From the NCBI GenBank assembly GCA_948567375.1, contig OX419756.1, forward strand, positions 35,912,333 through 35,976,332: a stretch of DNA of 64,000 nucleotides, given 5' to 3'. The notes under the pieces were generated by a model. That model was not told the origin of the DNA, did no database searches, and saw nothing but the letters and a program-made list of their open reading frames with translations. Below are positions 8,816 to 64,000 of this stretch, piece after piece. Position numbers and translations under genes: made by a program. The stretch's first letter is position 1. Every line of letters starts with the position of its first letter. Source of the stretch: Lunularia cruciata (taxonomy: Eukaryota; Streptophyta; Marchantiopsida; Lunulariales; Lunulariaceae).

Positions 8816-10640
8816 ATGATTAAGAATTTAGGTCAGAAGGCGGGAAATCATTCCTTCAATTGTAGGAGTTTTATTTATACTTCTCATTTTAAGCTCCTAC
8901 ATTATTTCTCCTATCTTGAAAAGTAATACTCTTGACTAAGGTTAGGATATGGTGTTTGTACTTTTGTTGCTTGAAACTGCACGCTTTCTCATATACACCA
9001 AAAGATAACGTTCCTGTTTTTCCTACCCATCACAAAAAATATCCATAGTTGAGATTAACTACAAGAATATAGTTTGCAAAAGACATATGTGTTCACTCAA
9101 CATTTGTAACACGTCCAAACATGCACTAACATAGTTAAAATATAACTTCAGAAATAAATTTTGTGGAGATTGTCTCCAAGAATCAAGTGCATTTAATAAC
9201 TGCATTTGCTACATTTCTTTGATCTAATTTTTTTCATATACTTTCATACTCTCTTTTTTCCAGCAAATGGGACAATTCTACTCGCCGAATTCTTAGTAGA
9301 GTATTTTTCTCATACTCCAAAGACTTTGCTTTGAACAATTTATGACCTGTGATACCGTAGTCCTCATGATTTGTCTTTCTTTTTCATTATAAGTATCTTC
9401 AAGGTTTCAAAACAACACGTAACTTGTAAACATATCTAAATCTTGGGATGTCAACATTGATGTAGCGACCGCTTGAATTAGAATCTCCAAGTTATTTTAT
9501 AAGCTTTATCTAACATGACAAAAAGAAATACTTTGAGTACATGATAATTCACCCCCTTCATACATACAAGTATGGACTAACTATTTATATATAAAATTAA
9601 ATTTCTATGTAAGAGATACAACAAAATATCCGCTTTTCATTACTATCATTTATTTATTTATTTATATAATCTAATAATTTCATGGGAAAAATCCTTTCAC
9701 TCAGATTCAATCTTATTCAGTATTCACAAACCATTTGTCTTTAAATAAAAGAATCCCAACAAATATGGCATAATAGGTTTATTTTTCATGTTAATTACAT
9801 GGATATACATGTTTATAATATATAAGAAAACAATTTAACATTACATCCCTTATATCTTGATAGCATAACAAATTTCTTTAAATTTATGAAATATAAGACA
9901 ATGATTTTTTTTTGCTCTCATGAAATCATTTAAATAATGATAAAAATAAAATTTGGTGGATTATTATTATTGACAAACAGTCCAAACATTATTGTTTAGA
10001 TGTGCAGCTTCTAGTAAAATCTGCTTAAATCTTGCTTAATACATGATAATGGACAAACTAAAACATGTTACTTGTTCTTGATTCATATACACAAACTGAT
10101 TACTTGAATTATATTTTAACTATTTTAGTATTCATTTTACGTTATGTACAATATGCACATAATCCCTATTTTGCTTGTAGAAGATCTATAAATAGTTCTT
10201 AATTGAATAAAGAATAAAAATAAACAGTAAATTTGATATTTATAAAATATACATAGATAAACAGGAAAATAAATCTTTTAGTATTTTTTATTCATGATAA
10301 AATAAAGATGTGATATATGGTTTCTCCAAATAGAAAATAAATTATGAAAAATCATATTGAAATCCAAGTGATTGAATGGTCATTTCTTTATCCATATATA
10401 TGCTCAACAAGAAGAGATAAACCATATTATTATATACCTTTTAATATTATGAAGTAAATATTTCTGTGGGACATTATCAGATTATTATGACCTATTGATA
10501 AAATCTGGATATTTCTTATCACCATTCCACGTGGTTATCCATTACTCTGAGATTCTAGAGGCATCACATACTTTTGACCACCAAGCCTGACCAATTATAT
10601 ATTTTTTATTTCAAAACCTCGCGACACAACCCAATATATG
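8816..10640. other. AT-rich intergenic DNA, nothing recognised
   Basis: Very AT-rich sequence with no frame longer than a few tens of codons. Simple (ATTT)n sequence occurs at about 9648-9665. Confidence 0.5.
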
Positions 10641-10649
10641 TATTTTGTA

Positions 10650-10975
10650 GCTTATGTAGGATGCATCTGTGGTTCTGAACCCGAACCCAAGAAGGGGGGC
10701 AGGCATGTGACTCTCGATGATTAAACTTTACAACGAGAAATATTGGGGTTGGGGGCCGTTGCAGCGTATGAGCGGTAATGTTCACGTACGGGTTCGGTGA
10801 GAAGGGTTGGGGACGGAAATGGCGCTTCGGTCTTATGCAAAACAGGTTTAGTCGAACCTACAATATCACCGTTATGAACGGTGCATTTGGACCAATTAAA
10901 CTATAAGCCCTGGATTCGCTATGCGAATCAAGCCTCCTTGCGGCCTTGTGAAGCAGAGAACGAATCTAAATAGCA
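10650..10975 (+). other. Candidate organellar insert with group II intron domain V-like hairpin
   Basis: This island is richer in G and C than its surroundings. At 10759-10795 it contains a sequence that folds like group II intron domain V. There is an AGC-G start, a six-pair upper stem TGAGCG/TGTTCA closed by a GTAA (GNRA) loop, a CG bulge, and a lower GTA/TAC stem leading into GGGTTC. Domain V is normally about 34 nt with these landmarks, and the lower stem here is imperfect. Downstream, three more stem-loops occur in a row (AGGTT...AACCT near 10850, CACCGTT/AACGGTG near 10868, GATTCGC/GCGAATC near 10912). The simplest reading is a nuclear copy of mitochondrial or plastid DNA. A stand-alone structured RNA is the alternative. 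Confidence 0.45.
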
Positions 10976-16010: not shown

Positions 16011-16106
16011 AAGGATCAAGAGAAAAAGGCAACTACGTAGGAAAAAGAAAGGATGAGAAGACCCCATCAAGCCGTACAAGGGAAAGAAAAAAAAGGTAAC
16101 ATGGTG

Positions 16107-16823
16107 CTAAGCCCCAATAGAGTATATATGAGAAATTTGCCCTACCGCACCTAAGATATCCAAGCTATGCAAGTCGTACGATCTACACACAACTGGAGCA
16201 TCCAAAGAAACATCAACTAATGTGATTGCTCTCCTATAGATTGCACCAACCACTACCCTCTGTAGAGCAATAGACACATGTTGTCTAAAATATGCTACAA
16301 AGTATGAGAGTGAGAGGGGTACCCCTTGATGCTTAACATGATAAACTCTCATGCACTCCTTGAAAAATGTGTCAAATGCCGTGTCCATCACTCCATATAA
16401 CTCCAAGGCTAGAGGAACAAAGAGGCGACCTCGCTGCATGCCCCTATACTTGGAGACCTTACGACCTGCTACTGCACTTGCCGCCCATCCAAGGGGATGG
16501 GTAATCACTCCTTTTGAAATTGTATCCCATGTAGGGTCCATAACCACGACATCCGCTATTGTCACTTGATCATCTTGGACCAAGTATAAGTCTACCTTGA
16601 AACGTGTTGTCTGCAAAGCATATGAATGCTCCCTCCAAACCAAGTATCCACTCTTTTGTACCATAGCAAACACTATGTCCCTAATGGCATCATGAGTAGC
16701 TATCCTTTGTCCTCCAAAAAGACACCGTGTCATGTGGACCGTTGTTGCATCTTGTGTAGAACCACACTCACAAGTGAGTAATGAAGATATAGATGTGTGG
16801 ACAAAACCTAGGCAAAACCTCAT
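16107..16823 (-). CDS. LINE ORF C-terminal part: Cys/His knuckle and PD-(D/E)XK-type endonuclease
   Basis: This open frame of 238 codons is downstream of the RT. Near its start a C-x-C-G...H-x4-C pattern (CECGS ... HMTRC) resembles the zinc knuckle after the RT of R2/CRE/NeSL-type LINEs. The THDAIRDIVFAM block, WREHSYAL, and R-x-KVDLYLV...IADVVVMDP follow. This spacing fits the restriction-like endonuclease that nicks target DNA in these elements. The frame is intact, but the element as a whole is interrupted elsewhere. Assignment to the RLE class rests on motif order, not on a profile search. Confidence 0.7.
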   Translation of the reverse strand: MRFCLGFVHTSISSLLTCECGSTQDATTVHMTRCLFGGQRIATHDAIRDIVFAMVQKSGYLVWREHSYALQTTRFKVDLYLVQDDQVTIADVVVMDPTWDTISKGVITHPLGWAASAVAGRKVSKYRGMQRGRLFVPLALELYGVMDTAFDTFFKECMRVYHVKHQGVPLSLSYFVAYFRQHVSIALQRVVVGAIYRRAITLVDVSLDAPVVCRSYDLHSLDILGAVGQISHIYSIGA

Positions 16824-17087
16824 TGTTGTAGAGAAAGTAGCTGGTGCAAGTCGGAATGCCCTAATGCATGGTCAAACTAGGATCCAAGAGCTTGCACCCT
16901 TGCCAGAGCAAGAGCAAAGATGTGCTCTAGTAGCCTGAGGAATGGACAAGTTGACTAAGAGAGAATATAGTGTATGCTCATACTGTCGCTCAATCAAGGA
17001 AGAATGTAAACCTCTAGTCCAATCTAATAATAGTGAAGCAAAAGGTGGAAAATCCTCTTGTGCTCATGGGGATAGACTATCTCTTGT

Positions 17088-18272
17088 CTACCGCAATAAC
17101 ACTTGGAAAGAATAGGATCCTCCCTCCACCTTTGTCACATAAGTCTCCAAAACCAACCTATCAACAACCACAAAACGGGAGGAAAGTAGGGGTGCCAAGA
17201 GAGCCCAACTACCCAAAACTGCTATAGGTGTTGTCTCCTCCATAGAAAGCAAGCCAACCTCACCACATGAGATCAGCAGAGCAGTCTGTCTACGTGCTAA
17301 ATCCCCTATCACACACTCAAAAGTCCATGGTCCAATAATATCACCAAAGACTCCCATAATCTTCCTATCAAATACTCCCAAACATGATAGGAAGGACGGT
17401 GAGGGAGGAGCTGTACAAATGAGGTAGGATGGTCGACGAGCAATATTGGAAGAAAATATACCAAATGCCACTTGCGGATCTCCTAGTAATAGAAGGTCAT
17501 TTACATGGAGAACATCCTCTGCAAGGGCAGCATCTAGGAAGCGTGTGATAAACTCCTTTGATCCTACTGGCACTCCAAGAACACGAAGTCCATCTGTGGA
17601 TGTGATACACCCCTCTAGAAGCCCAAGGTGGAGAGGGATACCTAAAAGGGACCATGCCCTACACTTTGACACCTTGACTCTCAAGCCTACTAGATGGAGC
17701 TCGATAGTCAAGTAGTCAAAGGCCTACCTAATCTGATCTACGGGGCCTACAATGTGTGTATCATCTGCCAAGGAGGAAAACACACAACCTGACATGGCCA
17801 AAGTAGTAGATAGGAGAGCTCTAAAGTAAGCCATGGCAAATAAGAGCCCTCCCAAAGGATCTCCTTGACGTGTACCAACAGTTGACTCCAAGACAATGAC
17901 TCCTTCTTGTGAACCACCATGTTGGTAGTAAAGAGAAGCAGGAGAGCCATAAAAAGACCACACAAAAGGAATGAGACTCGCCAAGGACCCACCAGCCTCC
18001 CTAAGCACTCTAAAGATGGATGCTCGTGAGACGCTATTAAAAGCATTCTCAACATCCACCTGTAGGATGACCCACTCCGGATGGTTTTTTAGGAGTGCTC
18101 TAATGCCCAAAGATATAGCCTCACATCCACTAGGTGTAGCTACTCCAAACTGATGCAGACTAAGGTGTTGTTGAAAGTGAGAACAATGTTGAAGGATAAT
18201 GATACGAATAACCAAACGCAAAAAGATCTCTCCAATAGCAATGGGTCTAATGCCTCCCATGTCCTTCTCCAT
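17088..18272 (-). pseudogene. LINE reverse transcriptase (left copy)
   Basis: The upstream frame (18272-17724) carries the RT palm. It has an entry block GGIRPIAIGEIF, an AFNSVSRASIF block with the first Asp in QVDVENAF, a GTRQGDPLGG block, and the SLADDTHIVG active-site pair of Asp residues. The second frame (17711-17088) carries the thumb and linker (KVSKCRAWS, VLGVPVGS, PQVAFGI). The two are in different frames, so one indel near 17712-17723 breaks the ORF. The 5' end of this domain continues to about 18380, where the solo LTR is inserted. Confidence 0.9.
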
Positions 18273-18385
18273 TGCAAAAAGTCAACTAGCACCTAATACC
18301 CAACTAACAGACATAAGAATATCTCCTCTCACTATTGCTATAGCCACCTAAAACAACTTGGTAAAACCACTAGAAGGATCATCTG

Positions 18386-20949: not shown

Positions 20950-21693
20950 GAGTGGTTAGCTTCTCAAGCGGGTTGCATTTTGGGGTTATTTGAGACTAGT
21001 TTTCCATGTCCACGTCTATTCCATAGGCTATCCCGCACACTCCATAATGAGGCTAGACAGGCTTTTTGCCTACCACTTGATCGTTTGGCACGTGATCCCT
21101 TGGACGAGTTAGCATGGTTCCTATTCCTCTTACTCCCTTGACGGTGTCTTCGTTATGCTAGAGAAGGACGTGCGGGGCATAGAGAGGTGGCTGCTAGATT
21201 TTTTTGATTCCAAGCAGGGGATTGGGCAGCCCTTCAAGAGGAGTCTATTAGGGCTACACGATTTAGGAGATGGCATCGCTACAAGATACCATAGATTCCA
21301 CTCGATTACAACGATGTAGGACATTGGGTCAGGCGGGAGAGTTTAGTAGAGCAGCACGAGCGCTACACCCTTTGTCTATAGTGAGTCCTACTGATGAGAC
21401 CATCTCTTCCTTACGCTCACTGCATCCTATAGCAGTAGAGGGACTACCACTAGAGGTCTTAGCCTGAGTAGCCTTTATGTCTTGATAGGTTGCTATTTGC
21501 ACAAGCATTGTGCACTGCCACTCGCCTTTCCTCAGGAGGCTTGTCAGGGATGGTTTATGAGCACCTTAGAGATTGCTTCCAGGCAAATGATCCTTCTAGT
21601 GGTTTTATTGAGTTGTTTCAGGTGGCTACAGCGGTATCGAGAGGAGACATTCTTATGTCTATTAGTCGGGTGTTAGGTGCTAGTTGACTTCTC

Positions 21694-22866
21694 GTGATGG
21701 AGAAGGACACGGAAGGCATTAGACCGATTGCTATTGGAGAGATCTTTTTGCGTGTGGTCAGTCGTACCATTGTCCTTCAGCATTGTTCTCACTTGCAACA
21801 ACACCTTAGTCCACATCAGTTTGGAGTAGCTACACATGGAGGATGTGAGGTTATATCTCTAGGCATTAGAGCACTCCTGGATATCCATCCGGAGTAGATC
21901 GTCCTACAGGTGGATGTTGAGAACGCTTTTAATTGCGTCTCACGTGCATCCATCTTTAGAGAGCTTAGGGAGGCTGGTGGATCCTTGGCGAGTCTCATTC
22001 CTTTTGTGCGGTCTTTTTATGGCTCTCCTGCTTCTCTTTACTACCAGCATGGTGGTTCACAAGAAGGAGTCACCGTCTTGGAGTCAACTGTTGGTACACG
22101 TCAAGGAGATCCTTTGGGGGAGCTCTTATTTGCCATGGCTCACTTTAGAGCTCTCCTATCTACTACTTTGGCCATGTCAAGTTGTTTATTTTCCTCCTTG
22201 GCAGATGATACACACATCGTAGGCCCTATAGATCAGATTAGGCAGGTCTTTGACTACTTGACTACCGAGCTACATCTAGTAGGCTTGAGAGTCAAGGTAT
22301 CAAAGTGTAGGGCATGGTCTCCTTTAGGTATCCCTCCCCACCTTGAGCTTCCAAAGGGGTGTATCACATCCACAGATGGACCTTGTGTTCTTGGAGTGCC
22401 AATAAGATCGGAGGATTTTGTCACATGCTTCTTAGACGCTGCTCTTGCAAAGGATGTTCTCCATGTAGATGACTTTCCATTACTAGGAGATCTGCAAGTG
22501 GCATTTGGTATACTCTCTTCCAATATTGCTTGTCGGCCATCCTACCTCATCCGTATAGTTCCCCCCTCACCGTCCTTCCTATCACGTTTGAGAGCATTTG
22601 ATAGGAGGATTATGGGAGTCTTTGGTGATATTATTGGACCAAGGACCTTTGAGTGTGTGACAGAGGATTTGGCATGTAGACAGACGGCTCTGCCAATCTC
22701 ATGTGGTGGGGTTGGCTTGCTTTCTATGGAGGAGATGACACCTATAGCATTTTTGGGTAGTTTAGCTCTCTTTGCACCCCTACTTTGCTCTCGTTTTGTG
22801 GTTGCTAATAGGCCGGTTTTGGAGACTTATGTGATAGAGGTGGAGGGAGGATCCTTTTCTCTCTAG
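21694..22866 (+). pseudogene. LINE reverse transcriptase (right copy)
   Basis: The first frame (21694-21897) has GIRPIAIGEIF and HQFGVAT. A stop follows, and the long frame 21910-22866 (318 codons) has DVENAFNCVSRASIF, GTRQGDPLGE, SLADDTHIVG and the thumb region. The catalytic Asp residues are present in the text, but the stop at about 21896 and upstream breaks make the copy inactive. Confidence 0.9.
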
Positions 22867-22938
22867 ACGTTATTGCGGAAGACAAGAGATAGTCTATCCC
22901 CATGAGCACGAGAGGATTTTCCACCGTTTGCTTCACTA

Positions 22939-23692
22939 TTGTCAGATTGGACTAGAGGTTTACAGTCTTCCTTGATGGAGCGACAGTGTGAGCATACGCT
23001 ACATTCTCTCTTAGTCGACTCGTCCATTCCTCAGGCTACTAGATCACGTCTACGCTCTTGCTCCGGCAAGGGTGCATGCTCTTGGATCCTAGCTCGACGG
23101 TGCATTAGGGCTTTCCGTCTCGCACCAGCTACTTTCTCTACAGCAATGAGGTTTCGCTTAGGGTTTGGTCCACCCATCTGCATCTTCATTACTCACTTGT
23201 GAGTGTGGCTCTACACTAGATGCAGCAGCGGTCCACATGACACGGTGTCCTTTTGGAGGATAGAGGATAGCTATCCATGATGCCATTAGAGGCATAGTGT
23301 TTGCTATGGCACGAGAGAGTGGATACTTGGCTTGGAGGGAGCGTTTGCATGCCTTGCAGACGACACGTATCAGGGAAGACTTATACTTGGTCAGAGATGA
23401 CCAGGTGACAATAACGGATGTCGTGGTTACGGACCTTACGCGGGATACAGTTTTGGAGGGAGTGATTACCCATCCTCCTGGATGGATGGCGAGTGCAACA
23501 ACAGGTCGCAAGGTCTCCAAGTATAGGGGCATGCAACGAGGTCACCTCTTTGTTCCTCTAGCCTTGGAGTTATATGGAGCGATGGACACGAGAGGGAGTG
23601 CGATGATGGACACGAGAGGGAGTGTTAGGGAGTGCACGAGAGCTTATCATGTTAGGCGTCAGGGGTACCACTCTCACTCTCATACTTTGTAA
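22939..23692 (+). pseudogene. LINE knuckle and endonuclease part (right copy)
   Basis: Frame 22939-23202 matches the linker before the knuckle. Frame 23297-23692 matches the endonuclease (FAMARESGYLAWRERLHAL, DLYLVRDDQVTI, DVVVTDLTRD). A short direct duplication near 23580-23620 (GATGGACACGAGAGGGAGTG twice) adds residues that are absent from the left copy. The Cys/His knuckle lies in a shifted frame at about 23190-23240. Confidence 0.7.
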
Positions 23693-23959
23693 TATATTTT
23701 AGACAGCGTGTGTCTATTGCTCTACAAAGTGCAATGGTTGGTGCAATCCATATGAGAGCAATCACATTAGGTGAAGTTTCTTCATATACTCCCGTTGTGT
23801 GTAGACTGTGTCTTAGGTGTGATAATGCAGATTTCTCCTAATGACTCTATTGGGGCTTAGCCCCATGTTACCTTTTTTTTTTTTTTTGTCTCTCCCTTGT
23901 GCGGCTTGATGAGGTCTTCCCATCCTTCGTTTTTCCTACGCGGTAGCCTTTTTCCTATA

Positions 23960-32830: not shown

Positions 32831-35800
32831 CTACTCATTCACCACAGCTGGTGGTGAGATACTGTCTTCTTGTTTTTCTGCTGTTTCAGTTTCTGATTGC
32901 GTTTCCATTTGCTCAACTTGGGGAGTCGATTCCACTACAGCTCCTTGTTCGTCTGCAGTTTTCGAGTCTGGCTTGATATTGTCTACATTCTCAGCGGTAG
33001 GCTCTATTACTGCGTCTACTGCCGTCTTTGGTTGTTCGTCAACAAGTGAAAGCCTTTGGAGCATTTGCCCGGCCTCTGCTTTTGTGATGAGAAGACTGAC
33101 ATTGCTTCTTCCTCGCCAACATCCAACTGCAGTTGAGCGAGTCAGGTCTACTTCTCCATTTTCGTTCTCTGTGAAGTCCAGCACGGGATTAAGAATCTGA
33201 GATTGCACCTTATAACTAACAGAAGCTTAACCAAGCTAGTCAACTATTCACTCAGGAAAAGAAGTAAACTGAGTGCGAAAAGTACCCAGGAACAGCTGAT
33301 TATTCGCAACATACCAACAACCATTCTTTAGTCTCAACCACAAAGCATCTAACCAACTACAGAAAATCATAAAGTTCAAGCGAGTTAGGACTACGAACGA
33401 TCAGAGTGGAAATACGTACTCTCTGGAAGAACGACAACACAGCACCCTGGGAGGAGACTTTGAAGGGCATCAACAAACTCGCGTTGTTTAAACGCATGAA
33501 AAGGGACAGCCTTCCCACTCAGCAGAAGCTTAAAGTCCGCACTAGTTGTGTGTACTATTTGCTTGGTCATGTGTGGCAACATGACCGGGAGCCCCTCTGA
33601 GGCTATTCTGAAAGCACAAAGCGCGACAGTTTCTCTTGGTGCCTGTCTTTCCTGCGATCCAATTAAGTTCAAGGCGTAAGACACTACGTGTGCTTCATCT
33701 CAAAAGTACTTCACGAGAACGAATACTCTTGTCACCTAGATACCATCCGAAATCAGAACGAGAGACGTAACATCTGAGCCTGGAAATTCATACTTTGCTC
33801 GCATTCCAAACTAAACAAAGAGACAAAAATAAACCAAGAGCAAGTTCTGCTCGTTTGGACCCTTACAAATATTTTTAGGCCTGCCGAGGTTATTTTCAGG
33901 TGTTGTCCGGCCCGAAAATTGAGTTTGATAACATCGCTGGCTGAATTGGAAACATAGTAGATCCTCTTCAATCGAGAGGTATCTTCACTTCGTGTCACAA
34001 GGTGACCTCGCAAAGGGAAAGTAACTTTGATTCCGTAGTAGGAAATGAGGCTCTGGATGACCTGTTCATCCTCCAAAAAGAGAACAGGATCCACCCCTTT
34101 CCATCTACCCTGTTGCTGCAGCTTCTTTTCACCATTTTCTTCAGATACTTTGCTCTCAGACCCATTCAGCGCTTGGGCTTCATCCGCCAGGTGCTCCTCA
34201 TTCTGGTCCAGGCTACTGACAGCCTGCGCAGCTGCTTCACCTTCACGTACACTTTCAAGCTGCTTTTCAGTTGGATCTACTGGTGTAGAAGCAGAAACAG
34301 CAACAGAAGAATTGGCATCAACCATTTCTGTGTCATGCACTGAATCTGGAGAGGAGCTATGTACTGGAACGTGTTGGACATTGTCAGCTTGACCATCCGA
34401 CTGTCCTGCCGACTGCTTCAACTTTTGACGCTTGTCAATCTTCTGCTCTTTCGGGTGAACTGCACGGAGAAATGTAACGCATCAATGAAATGAGGTCCTC
34501 CATGATCCGCGGACGCAGTGATCAAAGGATCAAAATCCGATTTTTCACAGTGGAAGTTTCTAAGTTAAGTTCCGATTAGTTCTTAAAGAAAAGGAAGAGC
34601 TCTGAAGAAGGCTGTGATCAGAGAAAAGAGAGGAAGGACGAAATAGCTATCACCATATAGTTTCTGTGCGGATGTGATAGGGCATGCACAAAACATATTT
34701 CGGAGAACAAAGGAACAATAGGTAGTCAGTCCGTTATCGCCGTGACAGTAACATCGCTGGAAACAGCATGAAGGGAAAACATGGATGTCTCAAAGAGAGG
34801 TGCTGAAAGATACCCTTGAATGGAGCAACTTTCCGAAAAACTGCGATGAAAAATCCACCACTGTTCTGGTCGTGTGGAAGAATACGCATGCATCGCTCTA
34901 GTGGAAGGCTTGCCACTTCAGGTTCGGATGCAATTTCATCTTCGACTTCTACTTCTTCGAGTTCATCCTCCTTCCCTTTACCTTCATTTACATCTTCTCC
35001 AGTTGCACCTTCGATTACCTCTCCCACAGCTGGGTCCGTGCCATAAATAATGCTCCGTGACTCCCCTTCCTGGTCCCAGCCTTTACCAGACGGGAACATA
35101 CTCGGAACTATTACTCCAGCACGATGACGGTCAACTTCAGAAGCTGAGCAAATCCATTTCCGCTTATCTCTGACCTGCAAGATGGGATAGCCATTAAAAA
35201 GAGGTTTGATAATTTATCCGGCCAGATCTCTACAACGCACGATTGTCAGCAAAGAGAAGATGCTAAGGAAACATACTCGGCACTGGAAAACTCAAAAGTA
35301 CTCGGAAGTAAAAACCCATCCTGTGGAGCTAATCGCGCTTGCTGTTTCTTAGATGAGGGATAAACCAAAACTTCAGACAACTACAGTTTGTGCATATTTG
35401 AAGTAGACCGCAGTGGATATAAGCACCATAAAGATAACTTGGGAACCTCGGCCATTCTCATAGTGCTGCGTCAAATGGACTTATTGAGAAGAACATTGAT
35501 TGCAGCTATCTTAAAAACCTACACTGGTAAATAGTAAGAATCATCACTTACCAGCCATGATCTTAAACCTGGCCTGCATTTCAGACCGGGAAGCTCATTT
35601 GATACGTCAAGAAGTTCCAAGCTACCACCAGCCTGACGCAACATCTATAGGTTCAAACGTAAAAGCTTCCATAAGACGCTAGTTACGGATGCCACCACGG
35701 CTATTTGAGACTTGATTCCCGGAAAATACTTAAGAATGGATGTCAAGGAATAGATCAATTCAATGTCAATTAACTGACGCACCTCGCCCACCACAGCTTC

Positions 35801-38800
35801 ATCTTCCACAGGATTTAGTGAGCATGTAGAATATACTAATCTGCCACCTACTTTCAGAAGGGCCACCCCTGCATTTCGTACAAGATCGACATGAATGCTA
35901 TGTCAAAATCAACTCCTCATACAGAGCTAAACCAAGGACTAAAGCCAAAGGGCTACCAAATCTATGATGTCGTATTGCAGGGAGACATGAAAAACCTAAG
36001 ACAAGTAGCTTTACTACATCACATGTCTCTCTCCAAGTTTATAAACCCAGTGGAAATTTGCACTCTCAATCAAGAACCTTCGTAACTCTGCGGGATCGGC
36101 ATCCATGAAGGGGACTCCATGCACATACACTTGCAAAGTCGGTTGTCTTAAATTTGCGGATTACAATGTAATACCTCTCATTGCAATTTGAATTTGCATG
36201 GTATGAATCCCGTTACCAAGTCCGCAATGCCTGCTCATAAGGCAGAATATTCAAGTCATGTTATCAAGCATACGCATTTAGACGTAGGGGTCTGCTCAAT
36301 CCACGACGCATCCAATCATGAACAAATAGATCTACGCTATTTATTGCATATCTATTGTCGTACACAAGAAGTGCAGAAAAACAAAATCTGTTATGATTTC
36401 TATCCACTTTTAGAGACAAAGAGTGAAGGATATACCACTTCTTCCAGATATCAGGGGCCTTGCGGATGGTACCATCACCACTGCATGGTACATCACAAAG
36501 AATGCGATCAAAAAATAAACCCATTTCCTCCTCTGGTACTCCATCCCCTGTTCTAATTTCCTCAGGAATATTATTTCCCCCATCAATGCTCTTCAATAGA
36601 TGACTGAGGTCTCTTCCTTTCTTCTTTAACCCTGGGAAGTGCTGGGCTTCATGATTGGTAACCAAAATATTTGGACTGCACATCCGTTTGGTCTGATGAA
36701 TCAGCAAATGACACCTTTGCACATCGAGGTCATTGGCTATAACCTGAGACAGAGGAAGCAGTGGATCAGTCCTATCATAGTGAAGCAGACCCCAATATAT
36801 AGCTGCTAACATATCACACACAATCAAGTGTGTCAAGTTCAAGATTCTCCGGTCATCGAGTCTACAACTGGAGCTACGATAGTACCCGATTTTCCAAACT
36901 ATCAGCGACAGAAGACATAAACTCACCAGGCCTTCTGGCGAACATCCTGGTTTATCATCCTTGTGAATCATCTCCAAAAGCTGGAAGGTTTTTGACCCAG
37001 GAGCTGCACACACTGTACAGCATGAAGAAGAACAAGATTCAGAAACGCTCTACAGAGAACAATCCTCCCAATATGCTCCCCAGGTCAAGTAAGATTCTTG
37101 TAGAGCCACTTCCAAAGCAGTAGAACCAGTGCTAGACAATCCACACGGCTGATTCTGCTTATACAACATAATATGAAGAAATGCTTATAACTTATACGCT
37201 GCACAAATAGCTTTCTCGCTCCTTTGAACTCGATTCTTACTTCTTTAAACCTACAAATACACCATGAGGATGACGTAACTAGGGTGGTCTGATCTGAAAG
37301 CGACATAAAAAATTTGTAATTTTTATACTGGCGTACCACCTACCTACGCATGCAAGTGCCTGTTGGAGCGGACAAGCTTACTGTCAAGGACCCGATGATG
37401 AGGTTGCACGTTCAAAAGTAGAGGTGGTAGCTGCACAATCAAAAACATCCACAGTATCCACAGTTTAAAGTCAATCCTCGGCGGTATCAAATCCTCCATT
37501 TGGCAGGATAAGGCCGCTGTCGATGCGGCGTAAACGTTGTAATGAACAAGTTCAGGTACGGAATTGAATTTAAGCAAACAAAAGTTTTACAAAGAAAAAG
37601 CTCAGCTTGCCAGGACGGAATGACAGTTTTGTGCTCTACTTGTCTGGGGCTGGCTTCTTTTATGAAGACCGAAGCTTCAGCTAAATCCAGCCAACCCATG
37701 AGGACTTCGTACATATATATACTAAAATATATACACATATGCTAAAATTTAAGATCTGCATTTAGAATGTTACTCACCATGCTTACGGCCTCCTGTCTAG
37801 TAATACTCCCAATTTCGTTCTCTTGTTTCAGAAACTCATGAATTCTGCGCACAGTAATAACTTTGGTTTGATCCTCTTGACCAAACCACGCAGTACAAAA
37901 GGGATGGCATACAACGGAAATATTGACAATTCACAAACAGTTTAATTACATCAAAAGACTGCACTCACCTCTCAAGAATCGGCATCTTCCGAAGCTGCAT
38001 CCTTGAGAAACTCAAGGTCCAAGCAAGTTTGTCGGGGTACCAGTCGAGGGGTTTGATCGGGTCGAGCATCTCTCCATCAACCTTGGCACGCAGAAAAACT
38101 TATCATAAACAAGTCTCCAAAAGCATGTGCAGCCAGACCACGTCAACTGGCTTTGAACGCAATGACAACAACCTTCTATGGGAATGCGTGATGCGGCTAC
38201 TTCTAGAGGTAGATTGGAATAGTTAATGAAGCGTTAATTGAACATGGCCCACTTGAGAAGTTCAATGGTTTGTGCCTTCACGGTAAGCTAAATTTCGTCT
38301 GTCTTCGAGAGTAATATCTCTCTGGTTTCCAGTCTGCGGAAAGAATGTCACGAAATCCGCCAAAGAAAAATTGATGATATGTTACCTCCACGCCCTCTTT
38401 CAAGTAATCAAAGAAATCATGTTGCATTTGATCCCTGATATCCTGCGCAAATTGCCCACTGAGGTGGGAACGCACAAGCACACACAGCGTTAAGGTAACG
38501 TCGAGGTACAAATCCATACAGAACCAGTGTCATATCATCAACTATAAGTATCGGCACGAGATTAGAAAATTCGGTAAATTCGCATTTAGACTATAAACCT
38601 CATTCTTGCAACGCTCAGCATTACATAAAGTCGTCGAAGTGCAAAAGCTCAAATTAATCAGTACCTTCCATTGATGCGAAAGCAAGTCGGCAATGGTTTA
38701 CGAAGAGTTTCGATGAAGATGTCCCATTCTTCAGGAGGTACAACACCCTGCTTCTGCTCAACCATTGCATCCAGACCAAAAAGTGAGCAACAAATAGAAC

Positions 38801-49300: not shown

Positions 49301-50871
49301 TTCATGTCATCTTTGATGCACTATCACAACAACTTGATTTGAAATGTCTTCCTCTCATCATAATAGTAATTAGTGTCAATAGATTCAAAAGTCCAAATCA
49401 AGTTTAGGACAACTTTACAACAAGATCCCATCTTTTAGATGGTACAAGGTCATATTGTAACACACAATAAGGAATATAAGACCTTCTCCTTCAAGGAAAG
49501 CCGTTTATTATGTGACAACTAGATCTATGTTCCAATTAAGAGTTATCTATGACTTGTGTGCCTTCAAAAAGTCCATGACATACCAATTATTGGTCACATC
49601 AATGTGGACAAGACATTGGATACCGTACACGCAAATGGTTGTGGTCCAACATGGCATAAGATGTTTGAGAGTTTGTCTAATCTTATGAGAGTTGCCAATG
49701 CAACAAGGCTAGCAACCAAAATTGAGTGGACTCCTTCAACCAATTCTCATCCCATCTGCTTGATAGGAACATGTGAGCTTAGATCTCATCACATCCTTGC
49801 CCACGACAAAACAAAGGCACACAACAGTTGTGATGTTTGTTGATAAGCTTAGTAAGAAAATCAATTTAGCACCAACCTTTGATACAAAGGATGCTCCAAA
49901 ATTTTCTCAAATCTACTTCAAAAACATCTTCATGTATCATGGAATGCCTTGCATACTCATTTTTTTCCATGATCCTTGATTCACCAAAAAAAATTCCAAG
50001 CATTCTTCTAGCTAATCGGCACCAAGCTTGCTTTATCCATGGCCTATGATCCTTAAACTAATGGACAAGCTAAACGTGAGAATCACATCTTGGGAGATAT
50101 GCTTTGTGCTTTCACCATACCAATTGGAATAGATGACTTGCAATTGTTGAGTTTACCCACAATAATTCCAAACAGGCAAGCATTGGATTCTCTCCCTTCT
50201 TTCTTAATTTTGGCCAAGACCCACTTGTTTCAGGTTCTTTCCTTGCTCCTCCTCCTCTCATGTCCCTCATACTTCCACCTTCTTTACCACAATATCCCAA
50301 TCCCTACAACAAGCCCAATCTTATTTCCTTGTTGCTCAAAATTGTTTAAAAAAAACATGGACGTCAACATCATCATGATCTTACCTTTCAACTTGATGAT
50401 AAGATCATGCTTTATTTTAGTAACCTATCCCTCCACCTTGATACCCAACTTAATAAACTTGCTCTTAATTAAATAATTCCCTTTGATATCATTCAAATTG
50501 TTTCTCTTGTTGCTTATTGACTTGCCTTGCCTTGACATATGCAAATCCGCTTTATCTTTCATATTTCTAAGTTGAAACTCTTTGTTTCTAATCAATCTTC
50601 CTTTTCCTCTCATGTCCAACCCCTCTTCTTCCTATCCCTTTCCCATCCCCATCAACAATCATAAGGATTATGATGTTGATTGTATCCTTGCACGTCACCA
50701 CATTCAACATGGCCGCCAACAACATATGAAGTACAAAGTCCTTTGGAAAAGGTATCCACTTCATGATGCCACTTGGGAGCCTCTTTCTCATCTCCAAAAT
50801 GAAAAATAGCCATCCATGAGTTTGAAGCTTTTATTGTGATGAGGATGTCTTCAACTAGCGGTGGGGGAATA

Positions 50872-56369: not shown

Positions 56370-57170
56370 TTTACCGTCAATCATTGATTAGCTCAATCAT
56401 TTTATCAAACATAGCTTGTTTGAGAAAATGATACCTAATGTCAATATGTTTCACTCTATTGTCCATTACTTGATTTATAACTAGATGTAATGCACTCTTG
56501 CTATCACAATGCACATTCACAATTTCATGAGTCAATCCCATCTCTGTGATAAGCCTATCCAACAAGATTGCTTCCTTTGCTACTCTATACTCAACTTTTG
56601 TAGTAGACTAAGCTACGTACTTTTGCAATGTAGATCTCCAACTTATGCATCCATCTCTAAGTATGAACACATACTCAAACATAGATTTACTCCCCTCTAG
56701 ATCTTTGTCCATAGTCAACATCTACATAACCGATAAGTGATTTGGCATTGTAAGATTTAGCATCAAACACAAGGCCAAAATCCAATGCACTATTGAGATA
56801 TTTGAGGATCCACTTCATAACTTCCCAATATATCCTCCCTAGATTTGACATGCATTTGCTAGTCTTGCCCATACTAGAGCAATGTCAGGCCTAGTACTGA
56901 TCATAAAAAACATGAGACTTCCCGGTGCCTTGTCATAGGGGATCTTGGACATCAAAGCTTTCTCCATGGCATCTGTTGGACAAAGAGCTGATGAAAGCTT
57001 GAAGTGAAGAGCCAAAGGAGTACTCACAGACTTGCAATTCTCTATATTAAATCTTGCAAGTACCTTTCTATCATACTTCCCTTGAGGTAACCACAACTTC
57101 CCATCCTCCAAGTTTCTTTAGATCTCTATCTCCAAAATCCTCCTTCTTGTACCAAGTGTCACGCCATTTG
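56370..57170 (-). mobile_element. Fossil Ty1/Copia pol, RT end and RNase H
   Basis: On the minus strand, about 57170-56840 reads as the Copia RT 3' end (KLWLPQGKYDRKVL, PGSLMF, RPDIALV). About 56870-56690 covers the linker with WILKYLNSALDFGLVF and GYVDVDYG. About 56565-56377 carries the RNase H end with HCDSKSALHLV and HIDIRYHFL. The 5' part of the element is absent. It is broken in several places. The purine tract and LTR follow at 56104. Confidence 0.85.
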
Positions 57171-58890
57171 TAGCATCATACCTAGATTGCTCAAACTTTA
57201 GAGAAGTAGTGTTAGTAGTCAAGAGTATTTTGGTAGTTACTCATAGACTACTTGTTGATGGTCAAATTTCATATTTAGGGTACTGACTATATGGTGGGGC
57301 CCATTGTTACTTTCACTATTCATATCATTGGGTGTGTCGTCAACAAAACCGTTAGGGTTTGAGACGTAGCTTGAGTCCAAGGGGGATACTTTTGAAGTGT
57401 AGCTCTAGAGAGCTCACTTCTTTGATGTTGAGCCTTTGAGTTATTGGCTATAGTGGATAGAGGCCAATGAGCATCACTTGGATTCTCTTAGCTAGAGTGG
57501 GTGTGACTTGACTGTAATCAATGCACAATTGTTGGTAGATTATTGAGTGACAGATCAAGTATTGATCTGATTGAGTGTGATTCAAGTTGTATAAACAAAT
57601 TGATTACATCAAAGAAGTGAGGTCAAGGGGAAATTGGGTGCAAGAATTGAGAATGTTGATGGTATCTCCAAGACTTGTAGATCATTGGTAGCTTGATCAA
57701 AGTTTTGATTTTCCCTAGTATGCAAAAGTTTGTTTGATTGATACACATTTGGAAATGAAGCAAATGGTATGCAGAAGTGTTGGCCAAATTTTGAGAAGCA
57801 ATTTTCAAGCAATAATTGTGATTTTGAGCTCATGAGGTGAAAGTAGGACCAATTTGGTGCAAGGTTAAGCTCAAAAAGTGAAATTGAAGGTGAAGTTAGG
57901 AACCCATCCCATGAATTTGTGATTTGGAGAAACTTGTCATTTCAATTTGGCTCAAGTGGAGAGTTATTGGAGGATTTGATGGTTGGCTAACTTTAGGGAT
58001 TTATGTCAGATCTTACATCAAATTTTTGCTAGAGTTTACATTAGATTTTTGCCAGATTTGGAGGAGTTTCACTTGTTGGCCAAATTTGGAGGAGTTTTGC
58101 TTGAGTTGGAGAAGTTTTGCCAAATTTAGAGAGGGCTTCAAAGTGGAAAAAAGAAAGGCCTTATTTGGCATGTAGAAGCTTCAAGGCATAGAGCTATGGG
58201 CTATGAGAGGCTACAAAGGCCAACTTGTTGGCATGAGGCTAGCTAGTTTAGAGTAGATTTTGGTCATTGTTTGGCAAAATCTGCCCACTTTGCTAGATTG
58301 TGCGCAATAGGATTTGATTCCTTGACCTTTGGTTCCTAGACTAGTGCTCTAGCCAACTGGTCCACCTTCACTTGTTGTCCAAGTGATTGTTCTATTGTTA
58401 TCTATACACTTGTAGCTTTAGCTAGGAGAGACAATTTGATCCCATTCTTGGTGATCTTGGTAGCTTAGGAAGTAAATAACCCATATTATATCAAATGCCA
58501 AAGAGTGGCAGAGTCAGTCCAATGTTAACTTATGAGATAGAGTGCTTTTGTTTAGATTTCTTGTGATTGGACCTCCTCCATTCTCTGATTCCTATTTGTG
58601 TACCATGTTTGTGTGAGGTGCCTTGACTTTAGAGCATTGGTGCTCTAGTGTGCTCTTGGTAGTGAGGCTGGAGTGATGACCAATCAAACTACCTATGTTT
58701 CTCTTTGGTGAAGCAAGAATTGATGACTTGTAGAGAGTGCGTGTTGTGATGGTAGGTTATGAGTTGCCCTTTTGCTTAGTGTAGTTGTCCTAGTTAGAGC
58801 TACATTAGTTGGTGATGTATAGTTGGTGGTGTTGGCACTTGGAGGTGTTGGCACTTGGTGGTGATTTTTGGTAGGGTACTTGTGGTGGTT
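57171..58890. other. Unassigned repeat-like region before the methyltransferase-bearing Gypsy element
   Basis: It has no convincing gene. About 57930-58150 contains repeated GGAG(A/G)AGTTTTGC words. It could include the 5' LTR and leader of the element that follows, but no LTR pair can be shown because the 3' end is outside the window. Confidence 0.35.
58296..58366 (-). pseudogene. tRNA-derived sequence (tRNA pseudogene or SINE head)
   Basis: On the minus strand it begins GGTGGACCAGTTGGCTAGAG, with an A-box-like TGGACCAGTTGG. It continues to a B-box-like GGAATCAAATCC at tRNA spacing, within GGTCAAGGAATCAAATCC. Acceptor and anticodon stems do not pair well, so this is not a working tRNA and the isotype cannot be assigned. 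Confidence 0.5.
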
Positions 58891-61009
58891 TTGGTTATGG
58901 GATGTAGTTCTTGGTTACTTTGTCAAGACTGAGTTCTTTGGGGATTCCAAAGGAGACAACACTGCAACTTGTAGTGGGTTTACTCAAAGTGGTGTTTGAT
59001 TTCAACTTGTATCTCAAAGTCCCAATGAGGGAGGAGATTGACTTTGAATCGGAGTTTGATATAGGAGCTGATTCAATTGAGAGTGCACTTGGTGTGTCTG
59101 CACCATTATTGTGGGATATGGACAAGATTTATGGGGTCTCCAAAGGTCCCAAGCATTACTCTGGTATAATAGGTACTATTGAGTTGGATGACTTCATCCA
59201 AGAGTTTGATAGTTGGTGTGATTTGCAATAGATGCAAAACCCAACTTTGTTCACACCCTTCATGGGCATGGAAAGGGTTGTTTCAACATTTGGAGGGTCC
59301 ACCGATGGACGACTACCATGAGTTTAGGAGAGCTCACTTGGAGGAGATTTAGCTATGGATATAGTATTGGTCTCCAAACTATATCTCCATTACTTCAGGC
59401 TTCTTTTTTAGGGGTAGGTTGGTAGTACCCATGAGTTCTAGCTCTAGTATCATTGGTGGATCTCTTGGAGATGGTGGTACTACTACAAGAGGGTGGTGTA
59501 GTACCGAGGTTTAAATCCATGGTGGAGTTCTTCTAATCTTTGAGGTTGAACTACTAGGGAGTGTGGACTGACAAGCTAAAGAGCTTGCAAGAGTTCTAGC
59601 GGAAGGCTAGAGAGAGCCTACGCAAGGTATACACTTGCATGAGATGGCTGATCAATTTTACTTAGGGAGTTATTGAGGCCCAAGCAGTCTAGTTTTGGTA
59701 TGGGATATTGGACAAGGAGTTGCAATGTAGAGTTCTTGATGCTATGTTGCTACAGGCTACTTTGGCAATGGTCTTTGGTTTGGCCGTGTATTGAGATCAA
59801 CATGGTGAAGGAGAGAGTGGTGAAATTTGGATTTTGTAAGGAGACCTCATCTACAACTATTACTTCTTCTAGAGTGCACCATGCCATGTTGGTTTCCAAG
59901 GATAGGATAGCCTAGATCCTATAAGTGAGTGGAAGGCCTAGTGTTGCAAGATCCTTACCTTCATTTTTAGGTCAGTAGTAGCCAGTGAGTGGTGGTGTTG
60001 GACTTGTGGTGAACCTCATCACAAGAGAGAGTGCACTTAGAGCAACAGACTTGATATCTCTAGTGCATCACAGCCAACATAGAGACAATGTGAGCATTGC
60101 CATAGATTTGGTCACACTAGTGACCAATGCTTTGACTTACATCCAAAGTTACAAAGTGGTAAAGTTGCTAGTATGGTAGGTAGTAGAGGTGGTGGTAGAA
60201 GATCCACACCTAGTAGAGATGTAGTACCTGCCTTTACTTCTGATACAACCATGGCTACTCAAATTTAGCAATTGGAGCAAAGATTTGCTAGCATGGTCAT
60301 AGCTCAAAGGAGATCAAATTCAGATGCTCAGGCTTCTATCTCACATGCAAGTGATAGAGACATCTTAAACTTCATGTGCGGAGCAACATAGGTAGATGCA
60401 TCTATTGTAGTGACTAAGAGTGAAATACATGCTCCAAAGCCTAGAGGAGCATCAGTGGAGTTAGACCCATAGAGAGGAGAGGTTGGTAGATAGCTTCTCC
60501 AATCTTTTACACTCTCTGAGGCATTACATACAACATCCATGGCTCCTGGACGTCCTAGTTCAGGTGTGGTAGGTGGTGATAGGATGCATGATGGACTACT
60601 TACTAGTCAGCCACCTACTAGTACACAAATTGAGTCTAGCACAAGGTTGAGGATGACTCAACTAAAACTACACCTTCCATTATTCTCAACCAGTGACATG
60701 TATATATTGGGAGTTGACCCAACCATGGTGTTTTGGTTGGCTGCCATGTTTTGTGATAGTAGGGATGATGTGGTTCTTACAACTCAATCAAAGGTAGTTG
60801 ATAGTGGAGTTGACTTGGTCAATGAGCATGGGATCCATTCAATGACGTATGGTTTGTGGCAGGTAGTAGCGGGTAAATTGGAGGAGTTACCAACTAGATT
60901 GGCCTTTGAGCAAGCAAGGTTAACACTTAGAGTTGTCTATTGGATAACTAGAGGGGGATTTTTCATTTGGTGGGACCTTCAAGGAAGGTATATTCACCAC
61001 AGAGGGTCT

Positions 61010-61400
61010 TACTAGACTCTGGTCTGTAGCTCCTTATGTTGGAAAAGGCTGCAATTGTTGGTTGAGAGTTATGGAAGACTGATTTAGAGAGGTGTCCATT
61101 TCAAATCCAAAAATCTCTAGGTGGTGGTTCTACACAATACATCATATGTAGAGAACTTGTTGTTTAGATTCAGCCCAATCATCTCACTAATAGCTTTGTG
61201 GTGAGAGCTCAAGCCATTGCAATAATGGCTAAGTCATATGATGTGTTAGTCAGAGGAGTAGTGTTATACCTCATGGGTTTCAATATTGACTATTGGGAGG
61301 AGATAGCCTCTTATAGACCAGGTTGGTAGTCAGGTGAGGGATGGGTATGTTGCCTATCTATACGCTTTAGTAGTGATAGTTCACTAGAGTTTGGGACCAT
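61010..61400 (+). pseudogene. Aspartic protease-like segment of the methyltransferase-bearing element
   Basis: This part reads like the retropepsin region of its Gypsy lineage. An LLDSG-type active-site block is recognisable near 61012. A YDVLV..VVLYPMGF block and a WEE..SYRPGW block follow at about 61240-61330. Fossil. Confidence 0.6.
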
Positions 61401-61709
61401 GGCAACATCAATTTTAGGTCAATGGTTCTGCTACTTGGCCCGGGGATTTATTGAAGAGGAATGCCCATGTAGAAGATACTCTAGTACTAGAGGAGATCAC
61501 TCAAATTTGGAGTATGAGTGGGATCATTCATCCACCTTGGATGTTCCTTTGTGGAGTTTAGAGGAGGCATTGCAACAACATGAAGATCAATTGGTGCAAC
61601 ATGCTTGGAGTGGAGCCTTTGTACCACTAGGCGACCAATGTGAGGATAAGGCTCTAGAGTCAATAACCTTGACACATCTGGATACCACACTCAATGCTTG
61701 GTAGTATCA

Positions 61710-62640
61710 AGTAGAAGAAATATGTTTATTGGAGTTGTTTGGTGAGATTAGTACTAGACTAGCTACGGTATTACATGCGGGTATACGAGTATAGAGATAC
61801 TTGTATGTGGAGAGAGATTAGACTACTAGGCAAGTCTCTCTACATCATGTGGCACACTTGGCCTATTGGTATCCTAAGTTATTATTGATGTCAACAATCA
61901 AGGATTACCAAAACACCTTACCAGCAAACATTTCCTTGTTGGGGGCATAGGATCTCGAGAGACATGGTCCTATTCATTTGGTGATTTTTGGATGGCCAGG
62001 TGAGGGACATACACGCACTTGTTGAGCTTTGGGTCTTTAGGATCCTTGTTTTGGTGTGTTTTGGGAGATGTTATGGATACTATGACATCTTTAGGTTCAT
62101 CAGTCTATTTCTCCAGCTTACATGCTAGAGAATGTCCCTTTGATGGGTGATTCTTGCACCAAGGTAGTGGTGAGCACACATTAGGTCCATTCTTGGATGG
62201 GACTTGTTGTGTTGTTGGATGCAGCCAAAGTGGGATCACATGCTCATTGTCTTTGTCTTTGGTGGACAAACCTCTTATCTAGAGAATTTCTATAGTGCAC
62301 TTATGATAGGATTCAATGACCACATCATTGTTAATGACATCTTGGATGTTAGGCGTTAGGTAGTAGTGGCTGATAGGTCATCTATAGCAATGGTGAACCT
62401 AGTTAGATAGCCTCAAGCCACTTTTCCCACATTTATGAGTTTCCTAAGCTCCCATGCTTTTTGAGAAGGAGGTCTTGGAATGGTTTGGGACTCACAATTA
62501 TAGTAGTTGGTGGAGCCCAACACCGATGAGAGATAGTGGGTGATGGTTTTTGCATTGGTATTACCATTATTCCAAAAGTGTAAGAGGCATCCGAGCATCA
62601 AGTGTTAGGTCAAGCTATGGACTTGAACTGTTTGACCTAG
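61710..62640 (+). pseudogene. C5 cytosine DNA methyltransferase-like segment inside Gypsy pol
   Basis: The segment starts with a CLLELFG.IST...TVLHAGIRV block, the form of SAM-binding motif I of C5 methyltransferases. HHVAHLA, IKDYQNTLPANISLLGA and HGPIHLVIFGWPG (the motif IV region) follow at about 61960-62000. MLENVPLMGDS (motif VI, ENV) is at about 62125, and an LWWTNLLSRE block (motif VIII region) at about 62260. AMDLNCLT is near 62620, ahead of the RT linker. C5 methyltransferases methylate DNA cytosine. Retroelement-borne copies have been described in the charophyte Klebsormidium and in dinoflagellates. Here it is a fossil. The motif order and spacing make chance unlikely, but no profile search was run. 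Confidence 0.65.
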
Positions 62641-63219
62641 ATTGTGAGCCTTGGCCTGGTAGAGTAGCATAGGATGCGCTTGATAGGCATCACCACCCAG
62701 ACACTTGTGAGCTTTGTGCTTATCAAGACAATTCAGGCTCATGTTGGGAGCAATAGACCAAGTGGACAAGGTATTCTTAAAACACAGCCAGTGGCTACTA
62801 GGGAGAGTGGTCTACTTGGAGTCCATCCAAGTGAGCATGGTCTACTTAAATTACACCCTTGGTATACTTGGGATGCAACTAGAGGATGTATGAAGCTTGC
62901 AGCCAGAGTAGAGGGAGTTTTTCACACTAAGATTGGGACCTCTAGTGCTTGGGAGCATGACACTATTGCTCCCAAAGGCCCGGTGTAGCAGCCAATCAGT
63001 ATTCCATTGTCTTCCACTCCTACAACAATTATAGAGGATACTTGGGAACCAGATCTAGGACCTAAGCTTACAAGAGGGGAAAGACAAAGAGTTTGGAGTT
63101 TCTTGAAGAGCTTACAGTTGTTCTACTTCAATATGAAGGATTTGGCTGCTTTGAAAAGACTTGGTATTTGGACTAAGTTGCCTAGTGATACACCAATTTT
63201 TTGACATCCCTATCAATAT

Positions 63220-64000
63220 AGTGACATGGAGAGAGCATTGATTCAGAGCTAGAGTAATGACCTTTTTGAGGCTAGTTTGGTGGAGATTTCACATGGAGAT
63301 TATGCATCAGCTACAATGATGCCAACCAAGAAGGATATGCATGGCAACTACATAGACAGGTAGATGTGTGCAGATTCCTATCCTATTGACCAATAGACTA
63401 GGGTTGATTGGTATGCCATGTCTACACCAGAGGAGATCTTTGATCAATTGGGCATGCAAAAGTCTTCAGCACTTTGGATTTTCAAGCAAGATATCATCAA
63501 TTGTTGATCAAAGAGGAAGATAAGTCCAAGATAACATTTTGGGCTATTGATCCTCATGAAAAAGATGTGTTATATCAATGGAGTTTCTTACCATTTGGGT
63601 TAAAGAACGCTCTTGTTGAGGTCTAGAGGGTCATGGATAGGATCCTAGCTGGATTGGGTTTTGTTTGGTGCTATGACATTTTGGTCTATAGTAGTATAGT
63701 GGAGGAGCATGAGAAACATTTGTTGGAGGTGTTTGAGAGGTTGAGATCTCATGGACTCAAATTACATCTTGGAGGTGTAGGTTTTTCCATGAGCAGGTTG
63801 AGCATTTGGGTCACACTATCTACATTGGAAGACTTGGTGTTCAACAGACCAATTGTTCAACAGACCATCTTGGAGGCTATTGCACATATTTCTTAGCCTA
63901 TGGATGTGAGCAGAGTGGAAGCATTCCTTGGGTTGGTAAACTTCTATTGCCGCTATGTTAGAGGATTTAGTGTCATTGCCAAGGCCTTGATGAAGCTTAC
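63220..64000 (+). pseudogene. Gypsy reverse transcriptase (partial, runs off the window)
   Basis: The RT entry region lies at about 63220-63360 (DYASATMMPTKKDMHGNY). The palm follows, with the LPFG-type block near 63590-63600 and the region around the catalytic Asp pair near 63680. The VEAFLGLVNFY block marks the connection to RNase H at about 63918-63960. Fossil. Confidence 0.85.

Follow-up and report, generated by a model that had tools for sequence, protein, structure and literature searches.

A DNMT3-type methyltransferase domain carried by a numerous Ty3/Gypsy-type retroelement family in the liverwort Lunularia cruciata

The locus described here raises the question of whether a Ty3/Gypsy retroelement of a land plant carries a cytosine methyltransferase of its own, and of what use such an enzyme would be to the element. 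The window, which is the whole stretch of 64,000 nucleotides that was analysed, corresponds to C2:35912333-35976332 of the 566-Mb Lunularia cruciata assembly, in which eight contigs of 60-85 Mb account for 558 Mb. A first-pass annotation had placed a C5 methyltransferase segment at 61710-62640, between protease-like text and a Ty3-type reverse transcriptase on the plus strand. This assignment was borne out by a DNMT3 profile and by the match to a relative, L017; the place was right and the domain slightly longer, a decayed DNMT3-type cytosine methyltransferase occupying 61720-62727 of the plus strand inside a Ty3/Gypsy polyprotein. Such a domain is found as a regular component of a Ty3/Gypsy-type family that has very many members in this land plant.

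The 5' part of the element (57157..64000) lies within the window and the element continues for 2920 bases beyond it to C2:35979252. All parts of the element are recognisable in this copy, and were located as follows.

57157 to C2:35979252, plus strand: whole Ty3/Gypsy element, a complete insertion of 9764 bp (alignment to L020, remainder in L049)
57153..57156, plus strand: target site duplication (TSD) CAAG, 4 bp (second copy after repeat B2 in L049, 2921-2924)
57157..57606, plus strand: terminal repeat A1 (76.7% to the A1 of L020, E 2e-90)
57607..58843, plus strand: 5' leader (alignment to L020)
58844..60079, plus strand: gag-like region (79% nucleotide identity to a relative; zf-CCHC only E 0.27)
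about 59996-60037, plus strand: first zinc-knuckle-like stretch, within the gag-like region
60081..61719, plus strand: second knuckle, protease-like region and linker (alignment to L020)
60089..60130, plus strand: second zinc knuckle CEHCHRFGHTSDQC (pattern match in the window; same motif in ORF1 of L017)
61009-61023, plus strand: protease motif LLDSG (motif reading)
61720..62727, plus strand: DNMT3-type domain, decayed (profile, alignments, motifs)
61726-61752, plus strand: DNMT motif I (read in the window)
61966-62010, plus strand: DNMT motif IV (read in the window)
62125-62151, plus strand: DNMT motif VI (read in the window)
62242-62271, plus strand: DNMT motif VIII (read in the window)
62605-62628, plus strand: DNMT motif X-like block (read in the window)
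62986..62988, plus strand: ORF1 stop TAG, followed by CAG CCA, a TAG-CAR-YYA leaky-type context (sequence)
63185..64000, plus strand: 5' part of the reverse transcriptase, Ty3 type (RVT_1 and 4ol8 matches)

The motif numbers I, IV, VI, VIII and X follow the usage of the C5-methyltransferase literature. The four motifs I, IV, VI and VIII that had been claimed in the right order were all read at 61726-62271, and the motif reading and the alignments together gave an unrearranged order of the DNMT3 type. In a Pfam search of the raw window text RVT_1 passed its cut-off, and EAL and zf-CCHC fell short; in the pol frame the RVT_1 match covered 63501-63998 (E 1.8e-8), and the Ty3 reverse transcriptase 4ol8 was the best solved structure for this region (E 4.8e-11). 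The protease-like region of the window gave no Pfam protease match.

Other features were noted elsewhere in the window. The minus strand contains a host NSUN2-like tRNA cytosine methyltransferase gene of several exons at 32834-37049, with RsmB/F, pre-PUA and PUA domains, and an Rfam tRNA match of 32.4 bits, without an ARAGORN call, at 10834-10910. An element bearing a reverse transcriptase occurs twice in inverted orientation at 16022-18385 and 21584-23954 (87% identity; RVT_1 within 21898-22863), and what is left of a further Gypsy-like element, including a Tf2-1-like SH3 domain, lies on the plus strand at 684-1076, with related DNA at 49695-50603. A dispersed repeat of approximately 600 bp is found at about seven places and in both orientations between 40408 and 55991; the repeats are mostly 71-76% identical, and two contain a 156-bp tandem unit.

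The DNMT3 profile consisted of 115 aligned stretches from proteins of at least 250 residues, animal wherever named, drawn from the best 120 of 1529 matches to a query of DNMT3A and the fossil; the fossil itself was kept out of the profile. When the whole window was cut into 858 six-frame tiles, tile 61651-62550 of the plus strand ranked first with an E of 1.7e-5, the tiles ranked second and third overlapped it (E 0.92 and 1.0), and the best unrelated tile had an E of 3. A frameshift-tolerant alignment of the domain scored 54.8, which was reached by none of 200 dinucleotide shuffles (best 44.2), and the best other place in the window scored 45.0. The signal in this alignment was carried by the first half of the domain only, the C-terminal half alone being not significant (23 of 200 shuffles reached its score). 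Plain alignment to DNMT3A gave a score of 61, reached by 0 of 2000 shuffles, with low-scoring places elsewhere in the window of up to 56. When 200 residues of the fossil were searched against the PDB, DNMT3A accounted for 10 of the 11 matches, collinear over residues 6-188 and each with an E of 0.22 or worse, and C-terminal pieces gave no matches. Pfam returned no methyltransferase match for the fossil, whether 60400-62802 was translated in all six frames (E up to 1) or the pol frame was searched (E up to 10). Structure prediction for the read-through fossil without an alignment gave a worthless model, with a mean pLDDT of 34.9. Two frameshifts considered for the domain proved unneeded, as tblastn aligned the fossil in one frame with gaps.

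The identity of the domain is decided by a relative. All 341 residues of the L017 domain aligned with the fossil at 59% identity (tblastn, E 1e-109), and this full-length match is decisive because the L017 domain is itself positive both for PF00145 (E 1.5e-7, covering profile positions 48-120 of 324 only) and for DNMT3A (E 1.2e-8). The PF00145 match that had been looked for in the raw translation was absent from the fossil, and was found above the gathering cut-off in its relatives L016, L017 and L019. A chance resemblance, or an unrelated insertion in one copy, is so improbable that it can be dismissed: Pfam is silent on the fossil and the single PDB matches are weak, but the 59% full-length match is to a PF00145- and DNMT3A-positive domain whose position within the element is the same in a very large number of copies across the genome.

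Searches of the genome with the L017 domain (13698 first-look candidates) gave at least 118 scored domains, all 96-100% identical to it across 340 or more of the 341 residues. PF00145 gave at least 123 scored places among 2161 first-look candidates, comprising host genes and many long open reading frames that reach 1428 codons. With up to three mismatches allowed, 3963 places in the genome carry a 27-base piece from around motif IV and 4979 carry a 27-base piece of the PHD finger, each with 0 in its reversed control. The larger number for the PHD piece leaves room for relatives that have no DNMT or for unequal decay. Twenty copies (L014-L033, 10 kb each) were fetched from the PF00145 matches, mostly chosen for long open frames, so they are DNMT-bearing by construction and lean young; having been fetched for their DNMT matches, the closely studied copies cannot show that all copies carry the domain. 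One of them, L023, adjoins or lies within what appears by eye to be another retroelement, with an open frame of 807 codons.

The fetched copies have the order A1, leader, ORF1 (gag, protease motif, DNMT), TAG-CAR-YYA, ORF2 (reverse transcriptase, RNase H, DDE integrase, PHD), B1, A2, B2. ORF1 reaches 1428 codons and ORF2 has 1037 codons in L017 and L019, while one or both frames are broken in other fetched copies. ORF1 of L017 contains two CCHC-like knuckles, the LLDSG protease motif and the methyltransferase; the gag and protease of the relatives were identified by motifs only, with no Pfam support above threshold. ORF2 of L017 matched RVT_1 (3e-31), RNase H (4e-35), the integrase zinc domain (3e-18), rve (1e-12) and a C-terminal PHD finger (2e-10), the end of which is present in 19 of the 20 fetched copies. 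No Pfam match to a tyrosine recombinase was obtained in ORF1 of L016 or in either frame of L017, which has rve instead.

An arrangement with A1 and A2 as simple LTRs was considered and rejected, the repeats being split. Repeat A, of 449 bp in the fetched copies, opens the element and recurs near its 3' end, where the second A is flanked on both sides by repeat B of about 106 bp, giving the order A-coding-B-A-B; the window copy is organised likewise. The element starts with TGTC and ends with GACA, and a 4-bp TSD was present in all five fetched copies with the 5' flank in hand as well as in the window copy. Divergence between A1 and A2, measured in 16 of the 20 fetched copies, was 0.002-0.034 (K2P) in 15 of them and 0.108 in L019. 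At the B1-A2 junction, just before position 9350, a GACA-GC-TGTC palindrome was observed in five of seven copies compared (L014, L016, L017, L020 and L026). This palindrome resembles joined element ends and may have been left by a circular intermediate.

Divergence and damage set the window copy apart from these relatives. Its A1 and A2 differ by a K2P of 0.224 against a median of 0.023 in the fetched copies, approximately ten times as much. Motif IV reads GWPGEG in the fossil as against GWPCQG in L017, so that the catalytic cysteine is lost, and the methyltransferase contains many stops; of the 18 stops gained in the DNMT segment relative to L020, 10 are changes of CAG to TAG. The window copy is therefore dead, having lost the cysteine, acquired many stops and diverged in its terminal repeats. 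Its description as a fossil is correct for this copy and does not extend to the family, whose members include relatives with long open frames and near-identical terminal repeats.

Comparison with L020 over six segments gave plus-strand cytosines changed to T in the window copy at 53% of CG, 40% of CHG and 13% of CHH positions, and corresponding changes of G to A at 34, 36 and 12%, respectively. The CpG observed/expected ratio was 0.11 at 58300-64000 compared to 0.42-0.47 in the 20 fetched copies. In ORF2 of 19 fetched copies (L032 was excluded because of its low identity), C-to-T or G-to-A singletons numbered 0.42 per CG site, 0.34 per CHG site and 0.05 per CHH site. Because of this excess in CG and CHG and the low CpG of the window copy, the host very probably methylates the elements in CG and CHG contexts, and the copies die by deamination.

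Constraint on the domain was measured from 34 distinct element domains, of which 29 aligned without indels and 19 of these were free of stops; L010, L025, L032, L033 and L047 were left out, and L034 is the same place as L017. In the 29 copies the pooled pairwise dN/dS was 0.38. Singleton variants had a pN/pS of 0.57 (44 synonymous, 77 nonsynonymous), and variants found in at least five copies a pN/pS of 0.09 (18 variants, 14 synonymous and four not). For variants in at least three of up to 20 copies, pN/pS was 0.17 in the DNMT, 0.09 in the reverse transcriptase and RNase H, 0.11 in the C-terminal part, 0.26 in the protease-linker, 0.14 in the PHD finger (three variants only) and 0.75 in the integrase (seven variants only); gag, with two copies, was omitted from this comparison. 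As the shared variants are strongly purifying, the DNMT is clearly constrained in the transposing lineage, to a degree comparable with the reverse transcriptase though looser. Motif I is intact in 26 of the 29 copies and motif IV (GWPCQG), with its cysteine, in 28, for which reason catalysis seems to be needed.

The methyltransferase is separated from the reverse transcriptase by an in-frame stop. The end codon of ORF1 is TAG in all 20 fetched copies and is followed by CAR YYA in 19, L030 being different. Throughout the genome 1060 places match the flanks of the stop and 933 of them (88%) read TAG-CAR-YYA, with 0 for reversed patterns. The first 100 of the 1060 places listed include 15 exceptions, in which CAG after the stop has become TAG (nine), the stop is TAA (two), the third codon is another (one) or the stop is lost (three). 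In the literature on SIRE1 and tobamovirus, UAG followed by CAR YYA is described as the essential context for readthrough in TMV (PMC2194720, PMC2754532), and we infer that the TAG of the element mRNA is read through in the same way. RNA structure 3' of the stop was no better than chance (z -0.44).

These features can be combined into a single explanation, a DNMT3-bearing Gypsy family with the following mechanism, which as a whole we regard as reasonably probable. Readthrough of the TAG would yield much Gag-PR-DNMT and little RT-IN, so that the methyltransferase, lying on the Gag side of the leaky stop, would be packaged in large amounts and come into contact with the cDNA. Restoration of the split repeats would follow the DIRS scheme and be guided by the B1-A2 junction. 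New cDNA would be methylated de novo by the packaged enzyme, and would then enter the nucleus resembling host DNA, or land in a tolerated silent state. Integration would be carried out by the DDE integrase, with the PHD finger steering or tethering it to chromatin. Chromodomains in other Gypsy elements sit after the integrase, where the PHD finger sits here, and this finger may guide integration. The host would then silence the copies through CG and CHG methylation, and deamination would destroy them, as may be seen in the window copy.

For the methyltransferase itself, the preferred main role is self-methylation of the cDNA, to which we would give a chance approaching even. The domain might have been kept for another role, such as methylating RNA, binding nucleic acid within the particle or shielding the cDNA from deaminases. 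Its location in the Gag-side ORF is consistent with this, as is the lack of DNA methylation by the KnitGypsy-Dnmt3 domain in yeast, a result judged inconclusive in the main text of its authors' paper (PMC5890265), but the catalytic motif IV and its cysteine are kept in 28 of 29 copies, and such a role is somewhat unlikely. It is a shade less probable that the DNMT restrains the element for the benefit of the host, marking new copies for silencing with less transposition and a longer-lived lineage, an idea raised in the text of de Mendoza et al. (PMC5890265). In favour of restraint, the changes in young copies point to heavy methylation at CG and CHG, but the family is very numerous, has recent members and so does not seem restrained. 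Nor does the CHG/CG spectrum single out the enzyme of the element, because CHG sites are normally methylated by host CMT enzymes. A family with so many copies, some of them recent, in a land plant that methylates CG and CHG allows the use of the enzyme to the element to be put to the test, and the leaky-type stop and PHD finger suggest how the element could dose the enzyme and choose its target.

The host has cytosine methyltransferase genes from which such a domain could have been taken. A DNMT3 gene with two matching exons was found at C7:31989049-31990154, together with two DRM genes; L009 (C1:51668693) was noted as a second host DNMT3-like gene or remnant besides the C7 gene. The genome has one LEAFY gene, which marks the host as a land plant and in which the two type-defining positions are H and R, as in 2vy1 (Arabidopsis); they differ from D and C in the best-matched 4bhk (moss), and from Q and C in 9g19 and 9fwy. 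This LEAFY type, taken with the eight large contigs, is in keeping with a liverwort. In a tree the element domains formed one clade on a very long branch (4.3), apart from animal DNMT3, host DNMT3 and DRM; 12 of its 19 inner branches were without resolution, and the source of the domain was left unplaced. Two regions of the fossil polyprotein, searched against 5.8 billion protein sequences, had no match at E 0.01. Klebsormidium sequence was absent from those protein searches and from the best 120 of the 1529 matches to DNMT3A and the fossil. Scans of IMG/VR and GTDB confirmed no relative, and none of five IMG/VR loci found from a DNA pattern had a DNMT3 profile match (best E 0.83).

Capture of the domain from a plant DNMT3 or DRM, independently of KnitGypsy-Dnmt3, is unlikely. 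The host has its own genes of both kinds, but the element domain is far from them in the tree, the DRM order is rearranged where that of the element is not, and the A-coding-B-A-B plan and the Gypsy domains are common to the Klebsormidium element. Shared ancestry with that element is instead likely on the basis of the shared architecture, the unrearranged DNMT3-type domain and the A-coding-B-A-B plan making a link to the charophyte element likelier than a separate novelty. It is possible, if doubtful, that a streptophyte retrotransposon lineage extending from an alga to land plants writes methylation by means of a packaged DNMT3 acting on cDNA before integration, reads histones by means of a PHD finger, and recently reached thousands of copies in a liverwort.

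The precedents named in the first-pass annotation, in a charophyte alga and in dinoflagellates, are KnitGypsy-Dnmt3 of Klebsormidium nitens and SymbioDIRS-Dnmt3 of Symbiodinium, and the land-plant host together with the repeat plan extends and probably links that history (PMC5890265). In the main text of that paper the K. nitens element is a Gypsy element with a DNMT3 and A-coding-B-A-B repeats, and the DIRS-type Symbiodinium DNMT3s methylate CG de novo in yeast. DNMT3s in streptophyte retrotransposons were mentioned again in 2025, in a text citing the 2018 work (PMC12344493). Among the matches listed in a search of literature titles and abstract openings, a scope that leaves most subscription journals outside, there was no land-plant element of this kind, and the available text of PMC9033089, PMC9477723 and PMC10952607 has nothing on a land-plant DNMT3 element.

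The Lunularia element resembles KnitGypsy-Dnmt3, as described in the main text of PMC5890265, in its Gypsy reverse transcriptase, RNase H and DDE integrase, its unrearranged DNMT3-related methyltransferase, its lack of introns, its DIRS-like A-coding-B-A-B repeats and purifying selection on the DNMT. It differs in having a land-plant host and in its thousands of DNMT-motif places, K. nitens having fewer copies in contrast to Symbiodinium. The Lunularia DNMT lies in ORF1 before the leaky-type stop, on the Gag side; that of KnitGypsy-Dnmt3 lies within the Pol ORF, which may amount to a difference, depending on whether the algal frame contains a stop of this kind. The Lunularia element also has a C-terminal PHD finger, a word absent from the main text of the KnitGypsy-Dnmt3 paper (PMC5890265). 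SymbioDIRS-Dnmt3 likewise combines a retroelement DNMT3 with A-coding-B-A-B repeats, but has a tyrosine recombinase according to the same text (PMC5890265), where the Lunularia element has a DDE integrase and a 4-bp TSD; DIRS elements in general have such a recombinase, to which ORF1 of L016 and both frames of L017 gave no Pfam match. Plant DRM and host DNMT3 are also C5 methyltransferases by sequence, but are host genes and far away in the tree, and in DRM motifs VI-X precede I-V. In the available text on SIRE1 and tobamovirus an in-frame stop lies between two frames, as it does here (PMC2194720, PMC2754532); unlike these, the Lunularia stop, a candidate for readthrough, parts Gag-PR-DNMT from the reverse transcriptase. 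Gypsy elements with a DNMT3 and DIRS-like repeats are thus known already in Klebsormidium, and the apparently new features of the Lunularia family are its land-plant host, its copy number, the leaky-type stop that follows the DNMT and the PHD finger at the C terminus.
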